From Agrococcus lahaulensis DSM 17612 (lineage in GTDB: Bacteria > Actinomycetota > Actinomycetes > Actinomycetales > Microbacteriaceae), in NCBI RefSeq assembly GCF_000425105.1, contig NZ_AULD01000005.1:248001-312000 (forward strand): DNA of 64,000 nucleotides. Direction: 5' to 3'. Shown piece after piece: positions 30,361-42,370 of this stretch (position 1 is its first letter; every line of letters starts with the position of its first letter). The notes beneath the pieces were generated by a model. The model did no database searches, was not told the origin of the DNA, and was given only the letters and a program-made list of their open reading frames with translations. Made by a program: the position numbers and the translations under genes.

Positions 30361-32091
30361 ATGGCCACGATGATCCCCGGCGCACTCCGCCCCGGCACCC
30401 CGCCCGGCGAGGCGAAGGTCTTCGAGGCGCTCCGCGACCACCCCGGCACGGCCGACTGGATCGTCTGGCACGGCCTGCCCATCCGCCACCACGAGACGCA
30501 GGTCGAGGGCGAGGCCGACTTCGTCATCGTGATCCCCGGCGAGGGGATGCTCGTGGTCGAGGTGAAGTCGCACGAGCGCGTCGAGGTCGGTGACGACGGC
30601 CTCTGGAGGCTCGGGAGCCAGGAGCCCACGTCGCGCTCGCCCTACGACCAGGCGATCGAGAACGCGAGGAGCCTGCGCTCGTGGATCCTGCGGCGCGCCT
30701 ACGACCCGCGGTACCCGATCTGGCACGCGGTGTGGTTCCCGAACCGCGGCGGCGAGCTCGTCAAGCAGCTCGAGGCGCGCATCGACGTCACGCCCGACGC
30801 GACGCTCACGCGCCCCGACCTGCAGTTCGACCGGCTGGTGACGAGCCTCATCAAGGCGCTGCGGGCGGGCGAGCGCGAGCTGCGCGCGCGAGGCGTGCGC
30901 TACGAGGAGGGGCGGCCGACCCAGGCTGACCTCGCCGAGGCCCGCGACCTGCTGACGCCGCCCGTGACGTGGCAGCAGGCGAGCGCCGACGCGCGAGCCG
31001 CTCGCGAGCGCGACCTGCGCGAGGCGACCGAGCGGCAGGAGGAGGCGCTGCAGTACTTCGCGCACTACCCGCGGCTCGTCGTCGAGGGCCCCGCCGGCAC
31101 CGGGAAGACGAACATCGCAGTGCGCGCGGCGCTGCAAGCCGCCAACCGGGAGGAGCGCGTGCTGCTGACGTGCTTCAACAGGAAGCTCGAGGCCGAGCTG
31201 CGGCACCGGTTGCGCGATCGCGAGGAGGTCACGGTCGCGCGCGTCCACCACCTCATGCTCGCCATCACCGGCATCACTCCCCCACCCGACGCCGATGACG
31301 CCTGGTGGAACGGCGCCCTGCCCGACGCCACCCTGGCGATCACCCGCGCATCCGGCTTCGCGCCGCCCTACTCGTGCCTCGTCGCCGACGAGGCGCAGGA
31401 CCTCGCGCGCGACTCGACGCTCGACGTGCTCGACAGCCTGCTCGAGGGCGGCCTCGCCGGCAGCCGGGTCATCGTCGCCGGCGACTTCGACGGGCAGGAC
31501 ATCTACCGCCCACGCCACGCTCGCTCGTCGAGTAGCCCGGCGGAGCCGGGCGTATCGAGACGAGAGACGCTCCTCGCCCGCCTCTCCGACGCCGGCCGCA
31601 TGGCCGTGACCCGCAACGTGCGCCAGCGCCCCGAGCTCGCCGCCTTCGTCGAGGAGCTGCTCGGCGACGACGTCTACGAGCAGTACGATCGCGCCGAGCT
31701 CGGCGTCGAGTGCGGCCAGATCCTGCGGTTCGACTCCGCCGAGCAGCAGCAGGCGCAGCTGCAGCAGGTGCTGCGAGCCCTGTGGGAGGAGGGCTGGGAG
31801 CCGCGCGACATCCTCGTGCTCTCCCCTCGCCGCGCGTCGGCGGCCCGTCACGCGACGGGCTCGGTGGCGGATGCGCTGGCCCCCGACGACGCCGACGGTC
31901 CCGGCATCCGGTGGGGCACGGTGCACCTCTTCAAGGGGCTCGAGGCGCCGGTCGTCGTGCTCACCGACGTGGACGGTGCCACGCCAGGCTGGCGCGACCT
32001 GCTCTACGTCGGTGCCACGCGGGCGACCGAGCGGCTCGTCGTGCTCACGTCGCTCGACGAGATCGCAGACCGCGCGCCGCTCCCGCACTGA
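30361..32091 (+). CDS. NERD-domain, UvrD-like superfamily 1 helicase
   Basis: 576 residues. N-terminal NERD nuclease-related domain (about 15-130; EADFVIVIPGEGMLVVEVKSHERVEV contains the D..ExK-like core). Then a superfamily 1 helicase core: Walker A GPAGTGKT (243-250), motif II ADEAQDL (342-348) and C-terminal TVHLFKGLEAPVVVLTDVDG and YVGATRATERLVVL. Probable DNA repair or defence-type nuclease-helicase. About residues 388-403 are encoded by an inserted palindromic repeat read in a frame that avoids its stop. TACGTT six bases before the ATG suggests a leaderless transcript. Confidence 0.9.
   Translation: MATMIPGALRPGTPPGEAKVFEALRDHPGTADWIVWHGLPIRHHETQVEGEADFVIVIPGEGMLVVEVKSHERVEVGDDGLWRLGSQEPTSRSPYDQAIENARSLRSWILRRAYDPRYPIWHAVWFPNRGGELVKQLEARIDVTPDATLTRPDLQFDRLVTSLIKALRAGERELRARGVRYEEGRPTQADLAEARDLLTPPVTWQQASADARAARERDLREATERQEEALQYFAHYPRLVVEGPAGTGKTNIAVRAALQAANREERVLLTCFNRKLEAELRHRLRDREEVTVARVHHLMLAITGITPPPDADDAWWNGALPDATLAITRASGFAPPYSCLVADEAQDLARDSTLDVLDSLLEGGLAGSRVIVAGDFDGQDIYRPRHARSSSSPAEPGVSRRETLLARLSDAGRMAVTRNVRQRPELAAFVEELLGDDVYEQYDRAELGVECGQILRFDSAEQQQAQLQQVLRALWEEGWEPRDILVLSPRRASAARHATGSVADALAPDDADGPGIRWGTVHLFKGLEAPVVVLTDVDGATPGWRDLLYVGATRATERLVVLTSLDEIADRAPLPH
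31522..31565. repeat. REP-like palindromic repeat inside the NERD-helicase gene
   Basis: CGCTCGTCGAGTAGCCCGG ... CCGGGCGTATCGAGACGAG, the same unit as at 4277-4397 and 54103-54285. The coding frame reads it as Ser/Pro-rich linker (SSSSPAEPGVSRRE); the TAG inside the unit is out of frame. It lies between helicase motif II and the C-terminal RecA lobe. Confidence 0.88.
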
Positions 32092-32553: not shown

Positions 32554-33327
32554 TCAGGCGTCACTCGCTCCCGTGTCCCGAGACCCTGGATAGCCGTCGA
32601 GGAAGCGCCGGTACATCACCTGATTGGGGAAGGCGTCTCGGACCTGGGTGCCGAGCAGATGCGCGAGCTCGGGTGCTGGCTCGCCGATGAAACCCCACCT
32701 GTCCTTGCCCTCGTCCCAAGGCATCTCCGACGGGAACCACGAATCGACTCGGTACGCGCCGCGCACGATGCCGTAGGCGATGCCCAGTGCGTACGCCGCC
32801 CGGTCGCGGACCCATCCGGCGATCTTCCAGTGACCGCGCGTCGCGTCGTAGATCTCCCTCTCGTTCATGTCGGCGCGCCAGCCGTTCTGGATCTTGAGCA
32901 TGATCACCGGCTCAGGGATCGGCGGGCACGGCTTGGCCTGGTGCCGCGCGACGACAGCGGGCAGTGTGGCGAGGCCGTGCTGGCCCGAGTGATGACCGCG
33001 AACGAGGTTCGTGAGCGGGTGATGGTCGGCGTGGAAGGCGTCGATGACTGCCTGCTCGACGATGAACGCCGTGTGCTCGTCCTCGATGCCGGTGCGGAGG
33101 AACAGCAGGTCGACCGGCTGGCCGCTGGCCTCGATCTCGTTGATCGTCCGGATCTTGGCCCGCTCGGAGGCGAGGTCGGCGCCCGCTTCCCGAACGTGGG
33201 CGTTGATGCGGTCGCCGATGCCCTTGCCGACGTAGAAGACCTTGCCGTCGCGCGGATCGCGGAGCGCGTAGACGTAGTAGCGCAAGACGTCCGCGACCTC
33301 ACCCGGAATGCGAGCGTCGGCCGCCAT
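32554..33327 (-). CDS. GIY-YIG domain protein, LEM-3-like
   Basis: 257 residues. The N-terminal YYVYALRDPRDGKVFYVGKGIGDRINAHV is a GIY-YIG nuclease core with the YVY and YVG strands, Lys and Arg. A later helix carries Glu (EDEHTAFIVEQAVIDAF), in the position of the metal-binding Glu. The C-terminal half is helical and aromatic-rich with no assigned domain. Similar stand-alone proteins are annotated LEM-3-like GIY-YIG; the biological target is unknown. TAGCAT six bases before ATG 33327 suggests a leaderless transcript. Confidence 0.87.
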   Translation of the reverse strand: MAADARIPGEVADVLRYYVYALRDPRDGKVFYVGKGIGDRINAHVREAGADLASERAKIRTINEIEASGQPVDLLFLRTGIEDEHTAFIVEQAVIDAFHADHHPLTNLVRGHHSGQHGLATLPAVVARHQAKPCPPIPEPVIMLKIQNGWRADMNEREIYDATRGHWKIAGWVRDRAAYALGIAYGIVRGAYRVDSWFPSEMPWDEGKDRWGFIGEPAPELAHLLGTQVRDAFPNQVMYRRFLDGYPGSRDTGASDA

Positions 33328-33461
33328 GCTCGAATGCTACTGAGCGGCTGACGCTCCACTGCCGTGTCCGGCGGCGCCAGCATGTCGCGCATCCGCTCTG
33401 TTACCGACCGTGACGGGCCACCCGTGCGCTCCCAGCTCCGCGCTCCTACGTTGAGAGCACA

Positions 33462-33545
33462 CCATCCAGAGCGGCTGAGAGACCTGGCTCGACGACGCCG
33501 CAGCAACCCGTGATCGCGCGGGTGCTTCGGCCAGGACCGATGGAT
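33462..33545 (+). promoter_or_regulatory. SAM-I (S-box) riboswitch aptamer
   Basis: S-box consensus blocks occur in order: P1 CCATCC, AGAGCGGCTGAGAGACC, TGGCTCGACGACGCCGC, AGCAACC, P3 CCCG/CGGG, GGTGCTTCGGCCAGGACC and P1' GATGG. GCGGC/GCCGC forms P2. Binds S-adenosylmethionine; controls the MFS transporter and monooxygenase genes that start 92 bases later, repressing them when SAM is plentiful. A GC hairpin (CCGGCCGAGGCCGG, about 33562-33575) follows and may be the expression platform. Confidence 0.88.
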
Positions 33546-33636
33546 CTCCCGCATCGAGACCGGCCGAGGCCGGCATCGACCGAGCCCGCTGCGCGTGCCC
33601 GGATGCGGCTCCCTTGGGCTACGAGAGGACCACCGC

Positions 33637-35034
33637 ATGACCAGCATCGACCGGAGCGCGCAACGACGGCGCGTGCTCGCCTCCTCCTTCGTCGGCACCA
33701 CGATCGAGTGGTACGACTTCTACCTCTACGGCACCGCATCCGCCCTCATCTTCAGCACGCAGTTCTTCCCCGAGGGCAGCGCGCTCGCCGGCACGATCGC
33801 GTCGTTCGCGACGCTCGCGGTCGGCATCGTGGTGCGACCGCTCGGCGGCATCATCGCCGGACACCTCGGCGACCGCATCGGGCGCAAGTCGCTGCTCGTC
33901 GCCTCGCTGCTGCTCATGGGCGTCGCGACGACGATCATCGGCCTGCTGCCGAACTTCGCGGCGATCGGCTGGTGGGCGGTCGTCGGGCTCATCGTGCTGC
34001 GCGTCCTGCAGGGCCTCTCGGCGGGCGCCGAGTGGGGTGGATCGGCGCTGCTGAGCGTCGAGCACTCGCCAGCCCGGCACCGCGGGCTCTTCGGCTCGTT
34101 CACGCAGCTCGGCTCCTCGGCGGGCATGCTGCTCGCGACCGGCGCCTTCTTCATCGTGCAGCAGGTGCTGAGCGCCGAGCAGTTCAGCGACTTCGGCTGG
34201 CGCATCCCGTTCCTCGTCTCGGCGGCGCTCGTCGCGTTCGGGCTGTGGATCCGGCTCGGCGTCGAGGATGCACCCGAGTTCGAGGAGCACCGCTCGACCG
34301 GCGTCACACGCGCGCCGGTCGCCGAGCTGCTGCGCAACCACCGGCGCCCGCTGCTCATCACGATCGGCCTGCGTCTCGGCCAGAACGCCGTCTACTTCCT
34401 CATCACCGTCTACATGCTCAGCTACCTCTCGAGCGAGCGCGGTGACACGACGTCGGGCGTCACCGCCGTCATGATCGCCTCGGCGCTCGGGCTCGTCGCG
34501 ACGCCGCTGTGGAGCTGGCTCTCCGACCGAGTGGGCCGCCGTCGCGTCTCGATCTTCGGCTACGCATCGATCGGCGTCTTCGGCTGGGCGCTGTTCGCGT
34601 TCCTCGACGCCGGCCCGCTCGCGCTGCTGCCGCTCGTCGTCGTCATCGGCGTCAACATCACCCACGACTCCGTCTACGGCCCGCAGGCCGCGTGGTTCGC
34701 CGAGCAGTTCCCGGTGCACGTGCGCTACTCGGGCGTGAGCCTCGGCTACCAGATCGGCTCCGTGCTCGGCGGCGGCCTCATGCCGATGATCGCCGCGCTG
34801 CTGTTCTCCGCCGGCGGCAACGAGCCGTGGCTCATCGCCGGCTACCTGTCGGTGCTCGCGGCGCTCTCGATCGTGGCTGCCCTCTTCGCCGCCGACCCCG
34901 CGCGCGACCGCCCCGGCACCGACCTGGGCGACCTGCATAGCGCGACCGAGCGCATCCGCTCTCAATCCGACCCTGAGACCACCCTGACCGAGGCCGAGCC
35001 CGCGCTCACCGCCACCGAGAGGACCGCACGATGA
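33637..35034 (+). CDS. MFS transporter (MHS type) under SAM riboswitch
   Basis: 465 residues, 12 predicted helices. Signatures: FVGTTIEWYDFYLYGTASALIF, GHLGDRIGRKSLL and RVLQGLSAGAEWGGSALLSVEHSP. The riboswitch upstream and the flavin monooxygenase downstream (4-base overlap) indicate import of an organosulfur compound or a methionine precursor; the substrate is inferred, not visible. GAGAGGA precedes ATG 33637. The tail after about 425 is polar and low in complexity. Confidence 0.9.
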   Translation: MTSIDRSAQRRRVLASSFVGTTIEWYDFYLYGTASALIFSTQFFPEGSALAGTIASFATLAVGIVVRPLGGIIAGHLGDRIGRKSLLVASLLLMGVATTIIGLLPNFAAIGWWAVVGLIVLRVLQGLSAGAEWGGSALLSVEHSPARHRGLFGSFTQLGSSAGMLLATGAFFIVQQVLSAEQFSDFGWRIPFLVSAALVAFGLWIRLGVEDAPEFEEHRSTGVTRAPVAELLRNHRRPLLITIGLRLGQNAVYFLITVYMLSYLSSERGDTTSGVTAVMIASALGLVATPLWSWLSDRVGRRRVSIFGYASIGVFGWALFAFLDAGPLALLPLVVVIGVNITHDSVYGPQAAWFAEQFPVHVRYSGVSLGYQIGSVLGGGLMPMIAALLFSAGGNEPWLIAGYLSVLAALSIVAALFAADPARDRPGTDLGDLHSATERIRSQSDPETTLTEAEPALTATERTAR

Positions 35035-36440
35035 CCCGCCCCCTGCTGCTGAGCGCCTTCGAGATGCTCGTGCCCAACCACCAGTCGCCAGGCCTCTGGC
35101 GGCACCCCGAGTCGCAGGCGCGCGACTTCGACACGCTCGGCTACTGGACCGAGCTCGCGAAGACGCTCGAGCGCGGCGGCTTCTCGGCGCTGTTCCTCGC
35201 CGACATCCCGGGCGTCTACGACGTCTACGGCGACGGCATCGAGGCGACCGCACGCGGCGGCGTGCAGTTCCCGGTGCTCGACCCGCTCGTCGCGGTGCCG
35301 GCGATGGCGGCTGTCACCGAGCGGCTCGGCTTCGGCGTCACGGCGTCGGTCACCTACGAGTCGCCCTACCTGCTCGCGCGCACGCTCACGACACTCGACC
35401 ACTTCACCGGCGGCCGCATCGCGTGGAACATCGTGACCTCCTACCAGGACTCCGCCGCGCGCAACCTCGGCTACGACAAGCAGCTGCCGCACGACGTGCG
35501 CTACGACCGCGCCGACGAGTACATGCAGGTCATGTACAAGCTCTTCGAGGGCTCGTTCGAGCCGGATGCGGTGGTCGCCGACAAGGAATCGGGGGTCTGG
35601 GTCGACCCCGACCGCGTGCACCCGATCGGGCACGAGGGCGAGTGGTTCAAGGTGCCGGGCTACGCGCTCGCGCACCCGGGGCCGCAGGGCACGCCCTACC
35701 TCTTCCAGGCAGGCGCGTCGAGCCGCGGACAGGCGTTCTCGCTCGACCACGCGGAGGCGATCTTCTTCTCGGGGTCGACGCCGCAGCTCGTGCGGCGCTG
35801 GGTCGACGGCGTGCGCGACGGGCTCGTCGAACGGGGACGGTCGGCGGATGCGGTGAAGATCCTGACGATCGCGACCGTGATCGTCGCCGAGACCGACGAG
35901 GAGGCGCAGGCGCGGCTCGAGGAGTACCGGCAGCACGTCGACATCGAGGGCGCGCTCGCGCTCTTCGGTGGCTGGACCGGCGTCGACCTCTCCGGGCTCG
36001 ACCCGGATGCGACGCTCGAGCACGTGCAGACGGAGGCGAACCACTCGGCACTCGCGTCGTTCACGACCCTCTCGACCGGCCGCAAGTGGACGGTGCGCGA
36101 CCTCGCCGAGTTCGTCGCGATCGGCGGCCGCGGCCCGGTCATCGTCGGCTCCCCCACCACGGTCGTCGACGAGCTCGAGCGCTGGCGCGAGGAGTCGGGC
36201 GTCGACGGCTTCAACATCACGGCGGCGGTGCGGCCGGCGGACATCGAGCGCTTCGTCGATCTCGTGACTCCGGAGCTGCGGCGACGCGGGCTGCTGCCCG
36301 AAGCGGGCGATGAGTCGCAGGGGCTCACGCTGCGCGAGCAACTAGCCGGCGCTCATGCTCAACTCCCGCCGGATCACGTCGGTTCGAGCTTACGACGCGA
36401 GGGAGCACGCGCTAGCACCATTGCCCCTCGACGCAGTTGA
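35031..36440 (+). CDS. LLM-class flavin-dependent monooxygenase (NtaA/SnaA/DszA branch)
   Basis: 469 residues. Bacterial luciferase-like TIM barrel using reduced FMN and O2. NtaA/DszA-branch signatures: LLSAFEMLVPNHQSPGLWRHPES, YWTELAKTLERGGFSALFLADIPGVYDVYG, TASVTYESPYLLARTLTTLDHFTGGRIAWNIVTS and PYLFQAGASSRGQAFS. Likely oxidises an organosulfur compound (sulfonate, sulfone or thioether) to release sulfur, which fits control by the SAM riboswitch. Start overlaps the MFS stop (ATGA). The last ~33 codons are lower in GC than the rest and abut the restriction island, so the native C-terminus may be altered. Confidence 0.9.
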   Translation: MTRPLLLSAFEMLVPNHQSPGLWRHPESQARDFDTLGYWTELAKTLERGGFSALFLADIPGVYDVYGDGIEATARGGVQFPVLDPLVAVPAMAAVTERLGFGVTASVTYESPYLLARTLTTLDHFTGGRIAWNIVTSYQDSAARNLGYDKQLPHDVRYDRADEYMQVMYKLFEGSFEPDAVVADKESGVWVDPDRVHPIGHEGEWFKVPGYALAHPGPQGTPYLFQAGASSRGQAFSLDHAEAIFFSGSTPQLVRRWVDGVRDGLVERGRSADAVKILTIATVIVAETDEEAQARLEEYRQHVDIEGALALFGGWTGVDLSGLDPDATLEHVQTEANHSALASFTTLSTGRKWTVRDLAEFVAIGGRGPVIVGSPTTVVDELERWREESGVDGFNITAAVRPADIERFVDLVTPELRRRGLLPEAGDESQGLTLREQLAGAHAQLPPDHVGSSLRREGARASTIAPRRS

Positions 36441-36573
36441 AGCACCGCATGGCTGCACGCGATGTGGCGGACAAGTCGAGACATTCAGAGATCTGCGACA
36501 CGTCGAGACAGCTGCGCTCCTCCCGAGCCTTGGCGCAGCCTTGTGGGCGCTCAGCAGTACGGTGGAGACCAGC

Positions 36574-37800
36574 ATGCAACACAACCCAGCCCTTGCCTCG
36601 CCATCGATTCGTCCCCGCCCGGACAACGACGCTGGCAACGAGCCGCCACTGCGGGCTCTGAGCTTCTTCTCCGGTGCGATGGGCCTCGATCAAGGTCTGG
36701 AGATCGCCGGCTTGCACACGCTTCTGGCTTGCGAGAACGACCGCGCGAGCAGGGCAACGATTGCCGCTAACCGGCCGGACATCCCGATTCTCGAAGACAT
36801 CAACAAGTACTCCGCGTCGGACGTGCGGGCCGCAGCGGGATTGACCTCGGACGAGCCCATCGATGTGGTTGCAGGAGGGCCACCCTGTCAAGCGTTCAGC
36901 ACCGCGGGCGCTCGGCGCGGATTTAGCGACGATCGAGGCAACGTATTCCTGAAGTTCATTTCTTTGGCCGCTGAGCTGGATCCAGAATTTGTAGTAATCG
37001 AGAACGTCCGCGGATTGCTTTCGATGCCCGCTGCTAACGCCGGCAGTGCGGGAGATCGCTACAATCACCGGTTCGGCGCAATCGAATTGGTGTCGGATCG
37101 ACTTCGTGACGCAGGCTACGAGGTGACTTTCAATTTGTACAACGCGGCTAACTTCGGAGTTCCGCAGGTGCGTGAGCGAGTCGTGCTGGTCGCCGCACGA
37201 GGTCGCCGCTTGCCCTACCTCATGCCGACTCACAGCAACGACCCTGCATTCGGTCTCGCGCCGTGGCAGACGCTTCGCGAGGCGATTTCCGACCTAAGAG
37301 GGCGGCCTCATCAGCACGAGGAGTTCCCCGAGAAGCGTCTCAGGTTCTTTCGACTCCTGGAGGAGGGCCAGTACTGGCGACACCTCCCTGCTGAGTTGCA
37401 TGCCGAAGCAATGGGGAAGAGTCTTATGCTGGGTGGCGGAAAGACAGGCTTTTACCGACGCCTTGCATGGGACAAGCCGTCACCGACATTGGTTACGAGT
37501 CCCACGATGCCGGCGACCGACCTCGGACATCCGGAGGACTTGCGACCCCTTAGCGTCGAAGAGTATCGACGTATTCAGCAGTTCCCAGACTCTTGGCATA
37601 TTGAGGGCAAGATCCGCGATAAATATCGTCAGCTCGGCAACGCTGTGCCGGTAGGGCTTGGACAAGCTATCGGCGACCTCATCGTTCGCGCCCGGCGAGG
37701 CGAGTATATGGATCCTCCAGCGGGCTTCCCCTTCTCGCGCTACAAACTAACGTCGGATCGCGACTTGCTGGCGAACTCCTCACCCGCGGCGCGAACATAG
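36574..37800 (+). CDS. C5-cytosine DNA methyltransferase
   Basis: 408 residues. Motif I SFFSGAMGLDQGLE, motif IV GGPPCQAFS (catalytic Cys near 105), motif VI ENVRG (near 144), motif VIII PQVRERVVLVAARG, the target-recognition region, and motif X YRQLGNAVPVGLG (near 355). Transfers a methyl group from SAM to C5 of cytosine within a short site; the partner nuclease looks SinI/AvaII-like, which suggests GGWCC, an inference. ATG 36574 has GGTGGAG upstream; a longer frame from 36355 overlaps the monooxygenase. Its 3' end overlaps the convergent nuclease gene by 61 bases. Confidence 0.93.
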   Translation: MQHNPALASPSIRPRPDNDAGNEPPLRALSFFSGAMGLDQGLEIAGLHTLLACENDRASRATIAANRPDIPILEDINKYSASDVRAAAGLTSDEPIDVVAGGPPCQAFSTAGARRGFSDDRGNVFLKFISLAAELDPEFVVIENVRGLLSMPAANAGSAGDRYNHRFGAIELVSDRLRDAGYEVTFNLYNAANFGVPQVRERVVLVAARGRRLPYLMPTHSNDPAFGLAPWQTLREAISDLRGRPHQHEEFPEKRLRFFRLLEEGQYWRHLPAELHAEAMGKSLMLGGGKTGFYRRLAWDKPSPTLVTSPTMPATDLGHPEDLRPLSVEEYRRIQQFPDSWHIEGKIRDKYRQLGNAVPVGLGQAIGDLIVRARRGEYMDPPAGFPFSRYKLTSDRDLLANSSPAART

Positions 37801-38459
37801 GCTCGGAAACCTTCCTCCGACAGCGTGCCGGCAGCCTCGATGGGGAACGAGGCCCAGTTGGTGCTGCCGTTCTTGGCATGGAAGCGCCACCACTTCGAGA
37901 TATCGGTTCCCTTGCGGATCGCAGAACTGGATGAATTTTCAGTATTGTTGCGGCTTTTGACCTGTAGGGCGTGCCACTCTGCGCGCCCGTCAGGGGTGTG
38001 CTTGATGAAGTCGACCGCTCGAACCGAGCTGCCAGAGCACCAGACCCATCCCAGCGGCTCAAGCTCTTGAGCGATGTAGCGCTCAAGCAGTTCGCCGGAG
38101 AGGTTCTCTGCGACCATCGCGAGGCGGTGTGACTCCACAGCGCGCCGCAGCTCCGTGGGGGCGAATCCATAGAAGGTCTCGAGGATGTCGTCCATCAAAG
38201 GATCCTCGGCGGTGCCCGGCTGCGCGGGTGCGAGCACTGCGCGCCCCGCTCGGAACTTGTTGCCGAGATTGACGACGTATCCGACTGAGCCCGGCTTCGG
38301 AGCCATCGCACCTCTACCCACCGTAGGCATCAAACCGGGCGAGTAGTCGAGGAAGTCCAACACAACTTCAAACTTGGAGCGCAGGACACCGTCGAACTTG
38401 AGGCGCTGAAGCGCTTGCTCGATTGTGCTCGGGGACAGGGATGACAGCACGCTCACCAT
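37740..38459 (-). CDS. Type II restriction endonuclease, SinI/AvaII-like
   Basis: 239 residues. SSVRAVDFIKHTPDGRAEWHALQVKSRNN holds a PD-(D/E)xK-type core (Asp, then Gln-Val-Lys), followed by ENSSSSAIRKGTDISKWWRFHAKNGSTNWASFP, which matches my recollection of the SinI family cutting GGWCC. Pairing with a C5 methyltransferase supports a type II system. ATG 38459 is chosen because GTGGAG lies upstream. A promoter is visible at 38525-38553. Transcribed towards the methyltransferase and overlapping its end, so expression of the two may interfere. Confidence 0.82.
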   Translation of the reverse strand: MVSVLSSLSPSTIEQALQRLKFDGVLRSKFEVVLDFLDYSPGLMPTVGRGAMAPKPGSVGYVVNLGNKFRAGRAVLAPAQPGTAEDPLMDDILETFYGFAPTELRRAVESHRLAMVAENLSGELLERYIAQELEPLGWVWCSGSSVRAVDFIKHTPDGRAEWHALQVKSRNNTENSSSSAIRKGTDISKWWRFHAKNGSTNWASFPIEAAGTLSEEGFRAYVRAAGEEFASKSRSDVSL

Positions 38460-38524
38460 CGGCGCTCCACTATTTCGATGCGCCTTGGCGCGAGTCCGCG
38501 AAGAGGAATCTCTCGCTGCCTCGC

Positions 38525-38553
38525 AGACTACGTGAGCCTGAGTCACTAATCAA
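38525..38553 (-). promoter_or_regulatory. Promoter of the restriction endonuclease gene
   Basis: On the minus strand TTGATT (38553-38548), a 17-base spacer and TAGTCT (38530-38525) form a good sigma70-type promoter about 65-95 bases before the start at 38459. It lies in the gap after the EVE-DUF3883 gene, so the nuclease can be made separately from it. Confidence 0.65.
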
Positions 38554-38633
38554 GCGGGTCAGCAGTGCTCGGTCGCGGCCCGGCGTGGATCTCGTGCAGT
38601 CCGGCCAAGACTTCGAGGGCCGCCGTGCTGCAA

Positions 38634-39596
38634 CTACGAGGCGTCCGAGCCGCTGGGCAGTTCGTACTCGAGCTGAAGGTTGCGGAGGTGCCGATCTTCG
38701 GGGTACCAGTCTTGCCAGCGCCTGAGCTCTCCCCCGTAGCAGACATACTGCTGATCATCGTCTCTCACGAACTGTATGGCGTCCACAACGACGAGATCGG
38801 TGTAAGGGTAGACCCGAGCGTTTTGCACTTCATTCGTTGTGAGCAGTACGGTTCCAACCCTCGGAAGCGAGGATCCCTTCACCTCGACGCGCCGGATCTT
38901 GCTGGCCAGCGTCAACTCGAGGTCGTACGGCTTACCCAGCTCAGTGACATCTCTCGCTCCACGCCGCTCATACCACTGACGCGCTGCCGCCACCGAGTAC
39001 CGCTCGATCGCAAGACGAAGCTGAGTGTCGGACAAGAACCGCGGCCCGCCTCTCGCTGCGGTCGTTGGAACGCGTGGCAACGCCTGGCCGGTATCGATGT
39101 CGAATACTACAGGCAGCTCGAGCCCCACGAGCGCAAGGATCTCGAAGAGCTCCACAGGAAACTTGGTGAAATACGCCTGGTGGGCTCGCAATGGTCGGTA
39201 CGGCGAGAAGTTGAATGGGAAGTACTTGTAGTTGTCGTAGGCCGATTCAAGGACCGTCTGGGCGCGCATCAACTGCGCCTCAACTTCACGAACGTCCGTC
39301 AGCGAAATGATTCGCTCGAACGCCTCGAATTCGGCTAGCGGTACGACCCAACACTCCTGAGCCCGGCCGGCCCAAACCCTGGTGCCGACACTGGCCCCCT
39401 CCAGGACGACTGACGTCCCGATGAAGCCTTCCCCGCTGCGCCAATGCAGCACCACGTCGCCCGGCATCACGAACTGCAGCAACTGGTGTGACCAGTTCTT
39501 CGATTTTGGGGCGAACAGCTCCTCCCCCTGCAGCGGTCGGCTTAGCTTCTCCATCCAATATCTTTGCGCTGGATAGTTCTTCCACCATGCATGCAT
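38634..39596 (-). CDS. EVE-like domain fused to DUF3883 nuclease-like domain
   Basis: 320 residues. N-terminal region (1-120: HAWWKNYPAQRYW, GEELFAPKSKNWSHQLLQFVMPGDVVLHWRSGEGFIGTSVV) looks like an EVE/YTH-superfamily modified-base reader. C-terminal region (about 190-275: AIERYSVAAARQWYERRG, PYDLEL 223-228, RVEVKGSS 236-243, LLTTNEVQNARVYPYTDLVVV) matches DUF3883, a PD-(D/E)xK-like fold with Asp225, Glu238 and Lys240. The combination suggests a nuclease that reads modified DNA. Starts leaderless six bases after TATGCT (39608-39603). Upstream of the endonuclease on the same strand. Confidence 0.8.
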   Translation of the reverse strand: MHAWWKNYPAQRYWMEKLSRPLQGEELFAPKSKNWSHQLLQFVMPGDVVLHWRSGEGFIGTSVVLEGASVGTRVWAGRAQECWVVPLAEFEAFERIISLTDVREVEAQLMRAQTVLESAYDNYKYFPFNFSPYRPLRAHQAYFTKFPVELFEILALVGLELPVVFDIDTGQALPRVPTTAARGGPRFLSDTQLRLAIERYSVAAARQWYERRGARDVTELGKPYDLELTLASKIRRVEVKGSSLPRVGTVLLTTNEVQNARVYPYTDLVVVDAIQFVRDDDQQYVCYGGELRRWQDWYPEDRHLRNLQLEYELPSGSDAS

Positions 39597-39602
39597 AGCG
39601 GC

Positions 39603-39608
39603 AGCATA
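39603..39608 (-). promoter_or_regulatory. -10 box before the EVE-DUF3883 gene
   Basis: TATGCT on the minus strand, six bases before ATG 39596. It implies a leaderless transcript starting at the gene, at the right-hand edge of the island. Confidence 0.5.
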
Positions 39609-39740
39609 GAGGCGCCGCGCGACTCCGGACGCGCGCATCCTCTCGGTCTGCGCGTCACACTCCGTCACATCCCGCCGCGCTATCTGACAGCGTGAGACCA
39701 TGGAAGGCGACCCTCCGCATCCGCACCGGGAGCCTCCCCC

Positions 39741-40727
39741 ATGATCACGATCGACCACGTCAGCCGGCGCTTCGGCGACGGCCCCGACGCCGTCGTCGCG
39801 CTCGACGACGTCTCCATCGAGGTGCAGCGCGGCGAGATCTTCGGCGTCGTCGGGCAGTCGGGCGCCGGCAAGTCGACGCTGCTGCGCACCGTCAACGCGC
39901 TCGAGCGGCCCGATTCCGGCACCGTGACCGTCGACGGCACCGTCATCACCGGGCTCGAGGGCGCTGCCCTGCGGCAAGCCCGCCACAAGATCGGGATGGT
40001 CTTCCAGCACTTCAACCTCGTCGGCAACCGCACGGTCGCGCAGAACGTCGAGTTCGCGCTCGAGGCGGTCGGCGTCAAGGGCGACGAGCGCCGCCGCCGG
40101 GCGCTCGAGATGCTCGACCTCGTCGGCCTCGCCCACCGCGCGAACGACCGCCCCGCGCAGCTCTCCGGCGGCCAGCGCCAGCGCGTCGGCATCGCCCGCG
40201 CGCTCGCCTCGCAGCCCGACGTGCTGCTGAGCGACGAGGCGACGAGCGCGCTCGACCCCGAGACGACCCGGCAGATCCTCGACCTCATCAAGCGCCTCTC
40301 GGGCGAGCTCGGCCTCACCGTGCTCCTCATCACCCACGAGATGGACGTCGTCAAGCGCATCTGCGACTCCGCCGCCCTCATGGAGCAGGGCCGCGTCGTC
40401 GAGCAGGGCGCGCTCGAGCAGCTCATCCGCACGCCCGGCTCGCGCGTCGCCGCCGAGCTCTTCCCGGTCGGCGAGGCGCACTACACGCCCGGCCACCGCA
40501 TCATCGACGTCACCTACACGGGCCTCAGCGCCGACCGGCCGGTCATCGCGCAGCTCTCGCGCGACTTCGGCCTCGACGTGTCGATCCTCGGCGCCGCACT
40601 CGAGACGATCCGCGGCCACCAGGCCGGCCGCACGCGCCTCGCCGTGCCCGGTGACGCATCCGTCGCCCTCAAGGTGATCGACCGGCTCACGTCGCAGGGC
40701 GTGACCGCGTGGGAGGTGCACCCGTGA
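39741..40727 (+). CDS. metN: Methionine ABC transporter ATP-binding protein
   Basis: 328 residues. ABC ATPase with Walker A GQSGAGKST, signature LSGGQRQRVGIARAL, Walker B DVLLSDEATSALDPE, and a C-terminal NIL domain (about 250-328) that binds methionine and inhibits transport. Powers import of D/L-methionine with MetI and MetQ. GGGAGCC lies before ATG 39741. Probably once part of the SAM-riboswitch unit at 33462 but now separated by the island; no second riboswitch is seen in the 130 bases before it. Confidence 0.95.
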   Translation: MITIDHVSRRFGDGPDAVVALDDVSIEVQRGEIFGVVGQSGAGKSTLLRTVNALERPDSGTVTVDGTVITGLEGAALRQARHKIGMVFQHFNLVGNRTVAQNVEFALEAVGVKGDERRRRALEMLDLVGLAHRANDRPAQLSGGQRQRVGIARALASQPDVLLSDEATSALDPETTRQILDLIKRLSGELGLTVLLITHEMDVVKRICDSAALMEQGRVVEQGALEQLIRTPGSRVAAELFPVGEAHYTPGHRIIDVTYTGLSADRPVIAQLSRDFGLDVSILGAALETIRGHQAGRTRLAVPGDASVALKVIDRLTSQGVTAWEVHP

Positions 40728-41536
40728 TCGACCCCGCCGCGCCGGAGTTCTGGCCGCAGCTCTTCGCCGTGCTCCTCGAGGGCACGTGGGAGACGCTCTA
40801 CATGACGGCGATCGCGATGGCGATCACGTTCGTCGTCGGGCTGCCGCTCGGCATCGTGCTCGTCGGCACCGAGCCCGGGCGCTTCCTCGAGGCGCCGCTC
40901 GGCCGGCGCTGGCTCGGCCGCGCGATCAACGCGGTGCTGGGCTTCGTCGTCAACCTCGGCCGCTCGGTGCCGTTCATCGTGCTGATGATCGCGCTCATCC
41001 CGGTGACGCGCTGGCTGCTCGGCTCGTTCATCGGCACCGGCCCCGCGATCGTGCCGCTCACGCTCGTCGCGATCCCATTCTTCGTGCGCGTCGTCGAGAT
41101 CGCCGTGCGCGAGGTCGACCCGGGCCTGTTCGAGGCGGCCGAGTCGCTCGGCGCCTCCCGCTGGCTCGTCGTGCGGCGCGTGCTGCTGCCGCAGGCGTGG
41201 CCCGCGATCGCGCTCGGCACCGCCACGACGGTCACCTCGATCATCAACTTCTCGGCGATGGTCGGCGTGGTCGGCGGCGGCGGCCTCGGCAACGTCGCCC
41301 TCACCTACGGCATGCAGCGCTACAGCGCCCTCCACATCGTCTTCGTCGTCATCATCCTGTTCGTCATCGTGCAGGTCGTGCAGTGGCTGCTCACTCGGCT
41401 CGCACGACGCCTCAGCGGCGCCACCCCCGCCGCCGGCCGCACCGCCCGACGGACCGAGCGCGCCGCGCTCGACCTCGACGACGCATCCATCGTCTCCGCG
41501 CCCGCCCGCGGCGACGCCGACTCCCCCACCCGTTAG
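40724..41536 (+). CDS. metI: Methionine ABC transporter permease
   Basis: 270 residues, five predicted membrane helices, with the coupling motif EAAESLGASRWLVVRRVLLPQAWPAI. Forms the membrane channel for MetN/MetQ. GTG at 40724 overlaps the metN stop (GTGA). The C-terminal about 40 residues are polar and longer than in enterobacterial MetI. Confidence 0.94.
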   Translation: MIDPAAPEFWPQLFAVLLEGTWETLYMTAIAMAITFVVGLPLGIVLVGTEPGRFLEAPLGRRWLGRAINAVLGFVVNLGRSVPFIVLMIALIPVTRWLLGSFIGTGPAIVPLTLVAIPFFVRVVEIAVREVDPGLFEAAESLGASRWLVVRRVLLPQAWPAIALGTATTVTSIINFSAMVGVVGGGGLGNVALTYGMQRYSALHIVFVVIILFVIVQVVQWLLTRLARRLSGATPAAGRTARRTERAALDLDDASIVSAPARGDADSPTR

Positions 41537-41545
41537 GAACCACCC

Positions 41546-42370
41546 ATGGCCAACCGCCGCTCCCTCATCACCGCCCTCGCCGCGGGCGCGACCGTCGTCG
41601 CGCTCACCGCCTGCACCTCCGGCGCCGCCGACACCGCCGCGCCCGAGGACGGCTCGCTCGGCGCCGTGCGCGTCGGCGCGCTCCCCGTGCCGGCCGGCGA
41701 CATCCTCAACTGGGTGGACGAGAATCTCGCGGATGCCGAGGGTCTCGACATCGAGTACGTCGAGTTCACCGACTACAACACTCCGAACCCCGCCCTCACC
41801 GACGGCTCGACCGAGGCGAACCTCTTCCAGAACGCGACGTTCATGGAGACCTACAACTCGCAGGCGGGCGGCTCGCTCGTCTCCGTCGGCGAGGTCTACC
41901 TCCCGGCCGCCGCCTTCTACTCCGACTCGATCACGTCGATCGACGAGCTCGGCGAGGGCGCGACGATCGCCATCCCGAACGACCCGACGAACGAGGCGCG
42001 CGCGCTCGAGATCCTCGCGGCCGAGGGGCTCATCGAGATCGCCGAGGGTGCGACGAACCTCGACGGCATCACCGCGAACCCGTCGAACTTCCGCTTCACC
42101 GAGGTCGAGAACGCGACGCTGCCGCTCGCGATCCCCGACAACGATGCCGTCTTCGTCACCGCCTCGTTCGCCCTGCCGGCCGGCCTCACGCAGGACCAGG
42201 CGATCCTGACCGAGGGCGACGACTCGGAGTACTTCAACATCCTCGCGACGACGCCCGAGCTCGAGAGCGACCCGCGCATCGCGAAGCTCTACGAGCTGCT
42301 CACGACCGAGGAGACGCAGCAGTACATGCTCGACACGTGGGGCGGCCTGATCGTCCCGGTCGCGCGCTGA
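41546..42370 (+). CDS. metQ: Methionine-binding lipoprotein
   Basis: 274 residues of the NlpA/MetQ family. Signal peptide with lipobox LTAC (about residues 20-23), then AVRVGALPVPAGDILNWVDENLADAEGLDIEYVEFTDYNTPNPALTDGSTEANLFQN, the typical N-terminal lobe. Delivers methionine to MetI at the outer face of the membrane. Nine bases after metI; followed by a strong terminator. Confidence 0.94.
   Translation: MANRRSLITALAAGATVVALTACTSGAADTAAPEDGSLGAVRVGALPVPAGDILNWVDENLADAEGLDIEYVEFTDYNTPNPALTDGSTEANLFQNATFMETYNSQAGGSLVSVGEVYLPAAAFYSDSITSIDELGEGATIAIPNDPTNEARALEILAAEGLIEIAEGATNLDGITANPSNFRFTEVENATLPLAIPDNDAVFVTASFALPAGLTQDQAILTEGDDSEYFNILATTPELESDPRIAKLYELLTTEETQQYMLDTWGGLIVPVAR

Follow-up and report, generated by a model that had tools for sequence, protein, structure and literature searches.

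The window analysed here is a stretch of 64,000 nucleotides of Agrococcus lahaulensis DSM 17612 (assembly GCF_000425105.1, contig NZ_AULD01000005.1, positions 248,001 to 312,000), and the element in question is a low-GC block of restriction and modification genes directly upstream of metN, the first of the methionine importer genes metNIQ. The block occupies a slot that has been repeatedly refilled across Agrococcus, and the slot outweighs the single island. Taken as a whole, the region is quite probably an integrase-free Agrococcus defence hotspot with the metN leader as its edge, which in this genome holds a restriction-modification (R-M) pair of predicted GGWCC specificity and a separate, predicted type IV protein of the EVE-NOV_C kind. 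An earlier note, made from the letters of the sequence, had described a single island, and that interpretation is partly supported: the island is real, but it is merely one filling of a slot refilled genus-wide. The parts of the block and its two edges are as follows.

36351 to 36400, no strand: left junction, near the end of the monooxygenase gene, where homology to three relatives ends (G022 at 36351, G016 at 36377, G020 at 36394)
36574 to 37800, plus strand: C5-cytosine methyltransferase (MTase), probable modification enzyme of the R-M pair (PF00145, 1.8e-54)
37740 to 38546, minus strand: SinI/AvaII-family type II restriction endonuclease (REase), convergent with the MTase gene and overlapping it (PF09570, RE_SinI, 7.8e-52)
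38634 to 39596, minus strand: predicted EVE - NOV_C/DUF3883 PD-(D/E)XK fusion protein, named from its relatives and predicted fold, divergent from metN
39652 to 39740, plus strand: conserved metN leader, with the right edge of the island at 39652

The block occupies 3.25 kb (36.4-39.65 kb) between a SAM-riboswitch-controlled pair of MFS transporter and monooxygenase genes and metNIQ, and its GC content is 61.1% against 71.9% for the window. When all 3.25-kb windows of the stretch were compared in 50-bp steps (mean 71.9%, standard deviation 2.6), the minimum of 61.0% was found to start at about 36350, and the lower-GC block pointed out in the earlier note is the lowest-GC stretch of its length in the window. 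Third-position GC is 0.67, 0.73 and 0.73 in the three island frames (taken at their greatest length for MTase and EVE), whereas the genes of the MFS transporter, the monooxygenase and the NERD helicase reach 0.92-0.95. On the right side, homology to other genus loci begins at 39652-39653 in six of 15 loci and at 39736-39739, next to the metN start codon, in the other nine. The block is a foreign-looking, low-GC and bounded insert, which confirms the first observation made on it.

Among 24 genomes of the genus, 17 carry a MetN at least 83% identical to that of the window, two (G003 and G015) have one of about 70% identity and five have no metN at E<=1e-130. The stretch upstream of metN was read in all 17 close-metN genomes, and in 15 of them restriction or modification genes stand immediately before it, in about a dozen combinations. 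Ten of these 15 filled loci contain a C5 MTase and the other five an enzyme whose family is called modification-dependent (a putative function, assigned by name). The same monooxygenase and metN flanks enclose four unrelated inserts, of 3.3 kb in this genome, 2.9 kb in G020, 10.8 kb in G022 and 13.4 kb in G016. These genes of the window recur in none of the other 16 close-metN loci, in line with what the earlier note expected of this interval in relatives; across 18 genus genomes with 22 loci, neither the REase nor the EVE-like protein has a match at E<=1e-3, and the MTases there are 26-34% identical. The gene nearest metN is divergent from it in 13 of the 17 loci. The fillings listed below were named from 30 upstream proteins of relatives scanned with Pfam, 20 of which were also scanned with PADLOC, the other slot genes being unnamed; Mza, DISARM and Druantia are names of PADLOC models.

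This genome: SinI-type R-M pair and EVE-NOV_C gene
G022: MzaB, MzaC and MzaE models with AIPR, Z1, DUF4420 and a C5 MTase
G016: DruF model, DEAD helicase, C5 MTase and HNH protein
G020: McrB and McrC
G014: DrmA, DrmB and C5 MTase (DISARM-like)
G006 and G001: C5 MTase with two unnamed proteins
G005: C5 MTase and GmrSD_N
G002: C5 MTase, HNH protein and PD-Lambda-5_A-like protein
G017: broken C5 MTase and PD-Lambda-5_A-like protein
G018: C5 MTase and type II REase model (2.6e-173)
G004, G011 and G019: PLD-helicase-DUF3427 protein beside a NUDIX-like protein; in G019 also GmrSD_N, HEPN and AAA_15
G008: GmrSD
G007: a single orphan of 177 amino acids
G012: no defence gene upstream of metN

The mREase_IV score (7.2e-213) was computed for G004 alone; G011 shares its Pfam architecture, and the PLD-helicase of G019 was assigned by sequence cluster. 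Cluster cl12 we take to be the NUDIX-like one, and the small cluster cl6 is presumably Vsr. The last two lines of the list weigh against a defence hotspot, as do the divergent G003 and G015, in which no defence genes were seen by eye among unscanned proteins.

The concentration of C5 MTases upstream of metN exceeds what chance would give. A PF00145 search of the 24 genomes returned 18 rows, corresponding to 17 genes (two adjacent rows in G017 being one broken gene), 15 of them in metN-bearing genomes. Of these 15 genes, ten are located 0.8-8.2 kb upstream of metN, where chance would place 0.054 (target of 10 kb in 2.8 Mb). These ten form seven groups at less than 60% identity and hence do not represent one inherited gene. 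The formal P of 1e-21 is too small given the relatedness of the genomes, and counting by groups yields 5.8e-15 (7/12) or 9.4e-13 (6/11). GmrSD_N is less focused, with 3 of 17 matches in the slot, and was therefore rejected as slot-specific. Mutual exclusion of C5 MTases and McrBC was likewise set aside: McrBC occurs without PF00145 in G020, but McrC goes with a partial PF00145 match elsewhere in G012, and such numbers are too small.

Composition marks the same place. GC falls upstream of metN in 14 of the 16 genus loci profiled (weakly in G014), G012 having no dip and G007 one of just 500 bases, and the eight named Agrococcus loci likewise show a dip upstream of metN; their downstream GC is 72-77% in seven, the eighth (L066) giving 66.7% over only 414 bases. 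A dip is absent from 14 loci of Herbiconiux, Rathayibacter, Glaciihabitans, Arthrobacter and Pseudarthrobacter, and a hotspot in other genera was rejected on that basis. The comparison of the eight named loci with these 14 used 22 of 25 loci, as L071, L072 and L086 start near metQ and were excluded. Slot fillings also decay, since the C5 MTase of G017 (L054) is broken, its gene lying in two pieces upstream of metN. As a side observation, the unnamed protein clusters cl22 and cl10 stand with C5 MTases beside metN in G006 and G001 (L044 9830-10768 and 11204-11863; L052, L054); cl10 also occurs in G017, and both clusters are candidates for unrecognised restriction enzymes.

The R-M pair of the window belongs to the SinI/AvaII type. 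The start of the MTase is best set at the ATG at 36574, with GGTGGAG upstream. The REase also matches the PADLOC model REase_II (4.6e-57), and its nearest PDB entry is 6g3b (1.3e-48). The paper on AvaII, which cuts G^GWCC, carries the PDB code 6G3B and gives E123 and D147 as catalytic and N116, N167, T168 and N170 as base-contact residues (PMC7337904). REase residues E155 and D179 align with the AvaII active-site pair E123 and D147, Q195-V-K197 aligns with the AvaII QVK (Q161/K163, a pair taken from the alignment alone), and N148, N201, T202 and N204 align with the base-contact residues N116, N167, T168 and N170. Thus, the REase combines an RE_SinI domain, the AvaII catalytic and GGWCC-contact residues and a neighbouring C5 MTase. 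Because these catalytic and base-contact residues are conserved, GGWCC specificity is likely. The enzyme shares Pfam family and these residues with AvaII (PMC7337904) and differs from it in its actinobacterial host. GGWCC occurs 65 times in the window against about 97 expected under a maximal-order Markov model, at most an indirect pointer to the predicted methylation and cutting at this site. The MTase would mark GGWCC and the REase would cut unmarked GGWCC. A SinI-like nuclease was found in two of 398 genomes of the family including this one; the second, in G347, is a piece at a contig end beside an MTase of 53% identity. Profiles bore out the gene identities given in the earlier note for the C5 MTase, the SinI/AvaII-like nuclease, the riboswitch, the MFS and monooxygenase genes and metNIQ.

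The third gene is best read as encoding a member of a predicted class of EVE-PD(D/E)XK type IV enzymes, based on its fold match, the residues D225, E238 and K240, its DUF3883 relatives, and the predictions made by Bell et al. 2020 and in the DUF3883 papers. Relatives of the protein occur in seven of 398 family genomes including this one, the window protein and three others being full-length (protein search), and an alignment search of 394 genomes of the class at E<=1e-12 found 15 with a match, five full-length and ten in the C-terminal part only. The protein had no match in the genome contig set, and its alignment had none in the viral contigs scanned. Two of four aligned full-length members match NOV_C (PF13020, best 9.6e-6) and two match EVE weakly (best 0.14), while annotated plasmid homologues of the C-terminal half bear the DUF3883 label. 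An AlphaFold2 model built with seven full-length sequences (pLDDT 77, pTM 0.57) has VcaM4I as its top Foldseek match (2.3e-6), followed by Atu2648, the N-terminal (EVE) domain of an archaeal McrB, Rpa0253 and THYN1 bound to DNA with 5-methylcytosine (5mC), and more weakly by YTH domains, Hjc resolvases and HincII. Profile comparison with VcaM4I gives 0.002 and aligns P30 with the pocket residue P24; W75 and Y125 are invariant and would be available for a base pocket. In the nuclease domain the active-site residues D225, E238 and K240 are present in the window protein, the NOV_C profile being matched in relatives alone, and D225, E238 and V239 are invariant in ten aligned rows.

VcaM4I is an EVE-HNH modification-dependent endonuclease (PMC7897488); the model suggests that it shares the N-terminal EVE fold and the P30-P24 correspondence with the window protein, and the nuclease halves differ, HNH in VcaM4I and PD-(D/E)XK (NOV_C) here. 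Bell et al. 2020 (PMC7641849) proposed a type IV role for EVE-PD(D/E)XK enzymes of the same core architecture. DUF3883 itself has been named a novel REase domain (PMC3710099) and a presumed type II REase group (PMC10609329). The EVE-NOV_C protein would probably flip a modified cytosine into an aromatic pocket and cut the DNA with its PD-(D/E)XK site.

Two results weigh against this assignment. The window protein matches neither EVE nor NOV_C in Pfam even at E<=10, and PADLOC and NCBIfam searches of it were without match, so that the direct profile check proposed in the earlier note was negative; the evidence from relatives (NOV_C) and predicted fold (VcaM4I) overrules it here and indirectly supports the fusion of an EVE domain with a nuclease. 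In addition, K240 is kept in nine of the ten aligned rows, the exception, L058, having N and hence no catalytic lysine. This replacement, and the varied contexts in which EVE proteins occur (PMC7641849), would suit a protein that is not a DNA nuclease and is instead a modified-base reader for regulation, an RNA-targeting protein or an inactive nuclease fold. Such an alternative is unlikely, given the invariance of D225, E238 and V239, the retention of K240 in all rows but one, the Hjc and HincII nucleases among the weak fold matches and the handling of DUF3883 as an REase domain in the two papers named above.

The modification-dependent nuclease gene is probably independent of the R-M pair beside it, because six full-length EVE-NOV_C relatives (L057, L058, L059, L106, L107 and L108) all lack a nearby SinI-type nuclease. 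The earlier note had proposed the fusion as a third component of the R-M system, and this distribution speaks against it. An EVE-NOV_C protein could still act as a back-up of the SinI R-M pair in one three-gene system, for instance where modified cytosine in phage DNA keeps the type II enzyme from acting. All three genes do lie within one 3.25-kb block and are alike in GC and third-position GC, and phages escape R-M via modified cytosine which modification-dependent enzymes strike (PMC12923530). We nevertheless regard a single system as improbable, in view of the zero of six relatives near a SinI-type nuclease and of the SinI-type locus of G347, the only other one in the 398 family genomes, which has no EVE match within its 16 kb. 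The EVE gene is furthermore present in one of 24 Agrococcus genomes. One point weighs against independence: in L061, a relative with DUF3883 only, a C5 MTase gene is found at a distance of about 1.3 kb. It also counts against the overall reading that a nuclease recognising 5mC would harm its own cell by attacking DNA marked by the neighbouring C5 MTase.

To coexist with the MTase, the EVE-NOV_C protein must ignore GGW-5mC-C, and therefore the simplest prediction is that its likely target is 5-hydroxymethylcytosine (5hmC), its glucosylated form or another context. A comparable conflict between PcaRCI and PcaRCII is solved by promoter methylation (PMC8989522). There, as in this genome, a C5 R-M system stands with a methylation-dependent nuclease (here predicted) and the R-M genes lie in a variable low-GC region, but the promoter of the PcaRC nuclease holds a methylation site, whereas the region between the EVE gene and metN (39597-39740) contains no GGWCC, the sole site of the island lying at 39251 inside the EVE gene. 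Promoter methylation of the PcaRC kind is thus unsupported as a means of silencing that gene.

As to the route of exchange, two marks of an integrase-free hotspot were found, namely different genes between shared core flanks and the lack of a PF00589 integrase nearby. The 19 metN-bearing genomes show no PF00589 (tyrosine) integrase on the metN contig up to 30 kb from the gene, a search in which transposases and serine recombinases were not profiled and whose reach was limited by short contigs (among them G005 21 kb, G003 19 kb, G015 13 kb, G019 39 kb and G020 42 kb); the nearest such integrase seen is about 33 kb from metN, in G018. The earlier note, which saw no mobility gene, was right in this respect. 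Homologous exchange via the flanking genes fits the data. Within metN a tract of 72-88% identity to G016 and G020 lies amid neighbours of 93-99%, which suggests recombination at metN, and the metN leader of G016 is divergent (81%). Fillings would most likely be exchanged by homologous recombination in the flanking genes, with the metN leader as fixed edge. On the opposite side, the divergent tract is absent in the comparison with G022, so that it is seen in two of three comparisons, with no genome-wide baseline; it may represent one recombination event; and no empty monooxygenase-metN site was seen in the genus loci, so that insertion is inferred from turnover.

Low GC content, and recombinase- or transposase-like genes read by eye near some EVE-NOV_C relatives elsewhere, would agree with a decayed mobile element that has since lost its own integrase or transposase. 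We think this hardly probable: besides the lack of PF00589 integrases within 30 kb of metN in the 19 genomes (transposases not being profiled), no convincing flanking repeat that could serve as an attachment site was found (just imperfect pairs of 12-24 nucleotides, judged chance), and all four nearest genomes have different inserts with common edges. A tRNA was not found in the window. That the island genes are native, with a low GC that is functional rather than a trace of exchange, can be set aside, as nothing beyond their presence speaks for it, the EVE gene occurs in just one of the 24 genus genomes and the nearest relative, G022, 97% identical over metNIQ, carries a wholly different insert.

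The genes and elements around the slot are the following.

32554 to 33327, minus strand: GIY-YIG protein of the PD-T4-3 family, left of the riboswitch (PADLOC PDLC04031, 1.7e-38; LEM-3_GIY-YIG, 3.8e-11)
33459 to 33546, plus strand: SAM riboswitch (RF00162, 52.4 bits, cut-off 44.4)
33595 to 35034, plus strand: MFS transporter, left flank (PF00083/PF07690)
35031 to 36440, plus strand: NtaA/DmoA-type flavin mononucleotide (FMN) monooxygenase, left flank (TIGR03860, 2e-151)
39653 to 39670, plus strand: direct repeat CGTCACNNNNCGTCACAT with a 10-bp period, a possible metN operator, coinciding with the right edge of the island
39741 to 40727, plus strand: metN, right flank (NIL domain PF09383; best NCBIfam model TIGR02314, below its cut-off)
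40709 to 41536, plus strand: metI (PRK10782, 8.7e-46, below cut-off)
41546 to 42370, plus strand: metQ lipoprotein (PF03180, 9.1e-61)

The earlier note held that the riboswitch-controlled genes and metNIQ usually form one unit, which the genus data do not support: monooxygenase copies of at least 84% identity exist in just seven of 24 genomes. Four of these copies lie 2.9-13.3 kb upstream of metN, each with an insert, and the others are 27 kb away in G012 (a match broken into two frames), 34.6 kb away in G004 and on another contig in G019. At the left edge of the island, the monooxygenase frame (36400-36440) continues beyond the points where three relatives stop, which adds a short new tail to the C-terminus. 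Further left, the GIY-YIG gene has a 98% copy in G022 and is unmatched in the G020 locus (L042) and in the 1 kb left of the MFS gene in G016 (L113), and hence its position left of the riboswitch may be a second variable slot; PD-T4-3 corresponds to CMoRE, a type IV enzyme against 5hmC/5ghmC (PMC12923530). A protein with a NERD domain and a UvrD-type helicase (30361-32091, plus strand) adjoins this left flank, with copies of 98% identity in G022, 85% in G012 and 67% in G020.

The repeat CGTCACNNNNCGTCACAT has 25 matches in 15 of the 24 genus genomes, against none for a reversed control. Thirteen of the matches, in as many genomes, stand close before metN, and the copies away from metN occupy 12 places in 11 genomes. 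Judging from sequence, a nutrient regulator may use the repeat as its operator. One distant copy (L120 1501-1518) precedes a gene resembling an OmpR-type winged-helix regulator and another (L121 1501-1518) stands between MetE-like and PutP-like genes; the MetE-like, PutP-like and OmpR/GlnR-like labels are our presumed readings, made by eye. With its closest neighbour divergent in 13 of 17 loci, metN could physically share a regulatory region with that gene. It is nonetheless very doubtful that the slot is dedicated to cytosine-methylation-based or -targeting defence that shares the CGTCAC direct-repeat operator with the methionine importer, beside the supply of methionine and SAM; if true, a dedicated slot would tie restriction activity to methyl-donor nutrition.

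Hotspots of horizontal transfer without integrases were described by Oliveira et al. 2017 (PMC5635113), and the Agrococcus slot resembles them in its fast turnover between fixed core genes, the absence of any integrase found, its enrichment in defence genes and a possible sign of recombination in a flanking gene. It differs from them in that the cargo of all 15 filled loci includes a C5 MTase or an enzyme of a modification-dependent family, and in that the GC dip was seen in Agrococcus only. In the literature covered, which left out subscription papers, nothing was found that joins the EVE domain with DUF3883 or NO VEIN with nuclease, restriction and phage, and titles and abstract beginnings gave nothing on a defence hotspot beside metN or on Agrococcus R-M at this slot. 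The slot adds a tidy new case to a kind already known, the integrase-free hotspot. It is small and well bounded, and in close species it holds SinI R-M, McrBC and Mza-, DISARM-, Druantia- and GmrSD-type systems, four of the fillings lying between the same two flanks and no integrase having been found. It provides an EVE-PD-(D/E)XK protein as a candidate modification-dependent nuclease, and it offers a natural setting for the question of how defence systems are swapped without mobile elements and of whether 5mC-making and 5mC-destroying systems exclude each other.

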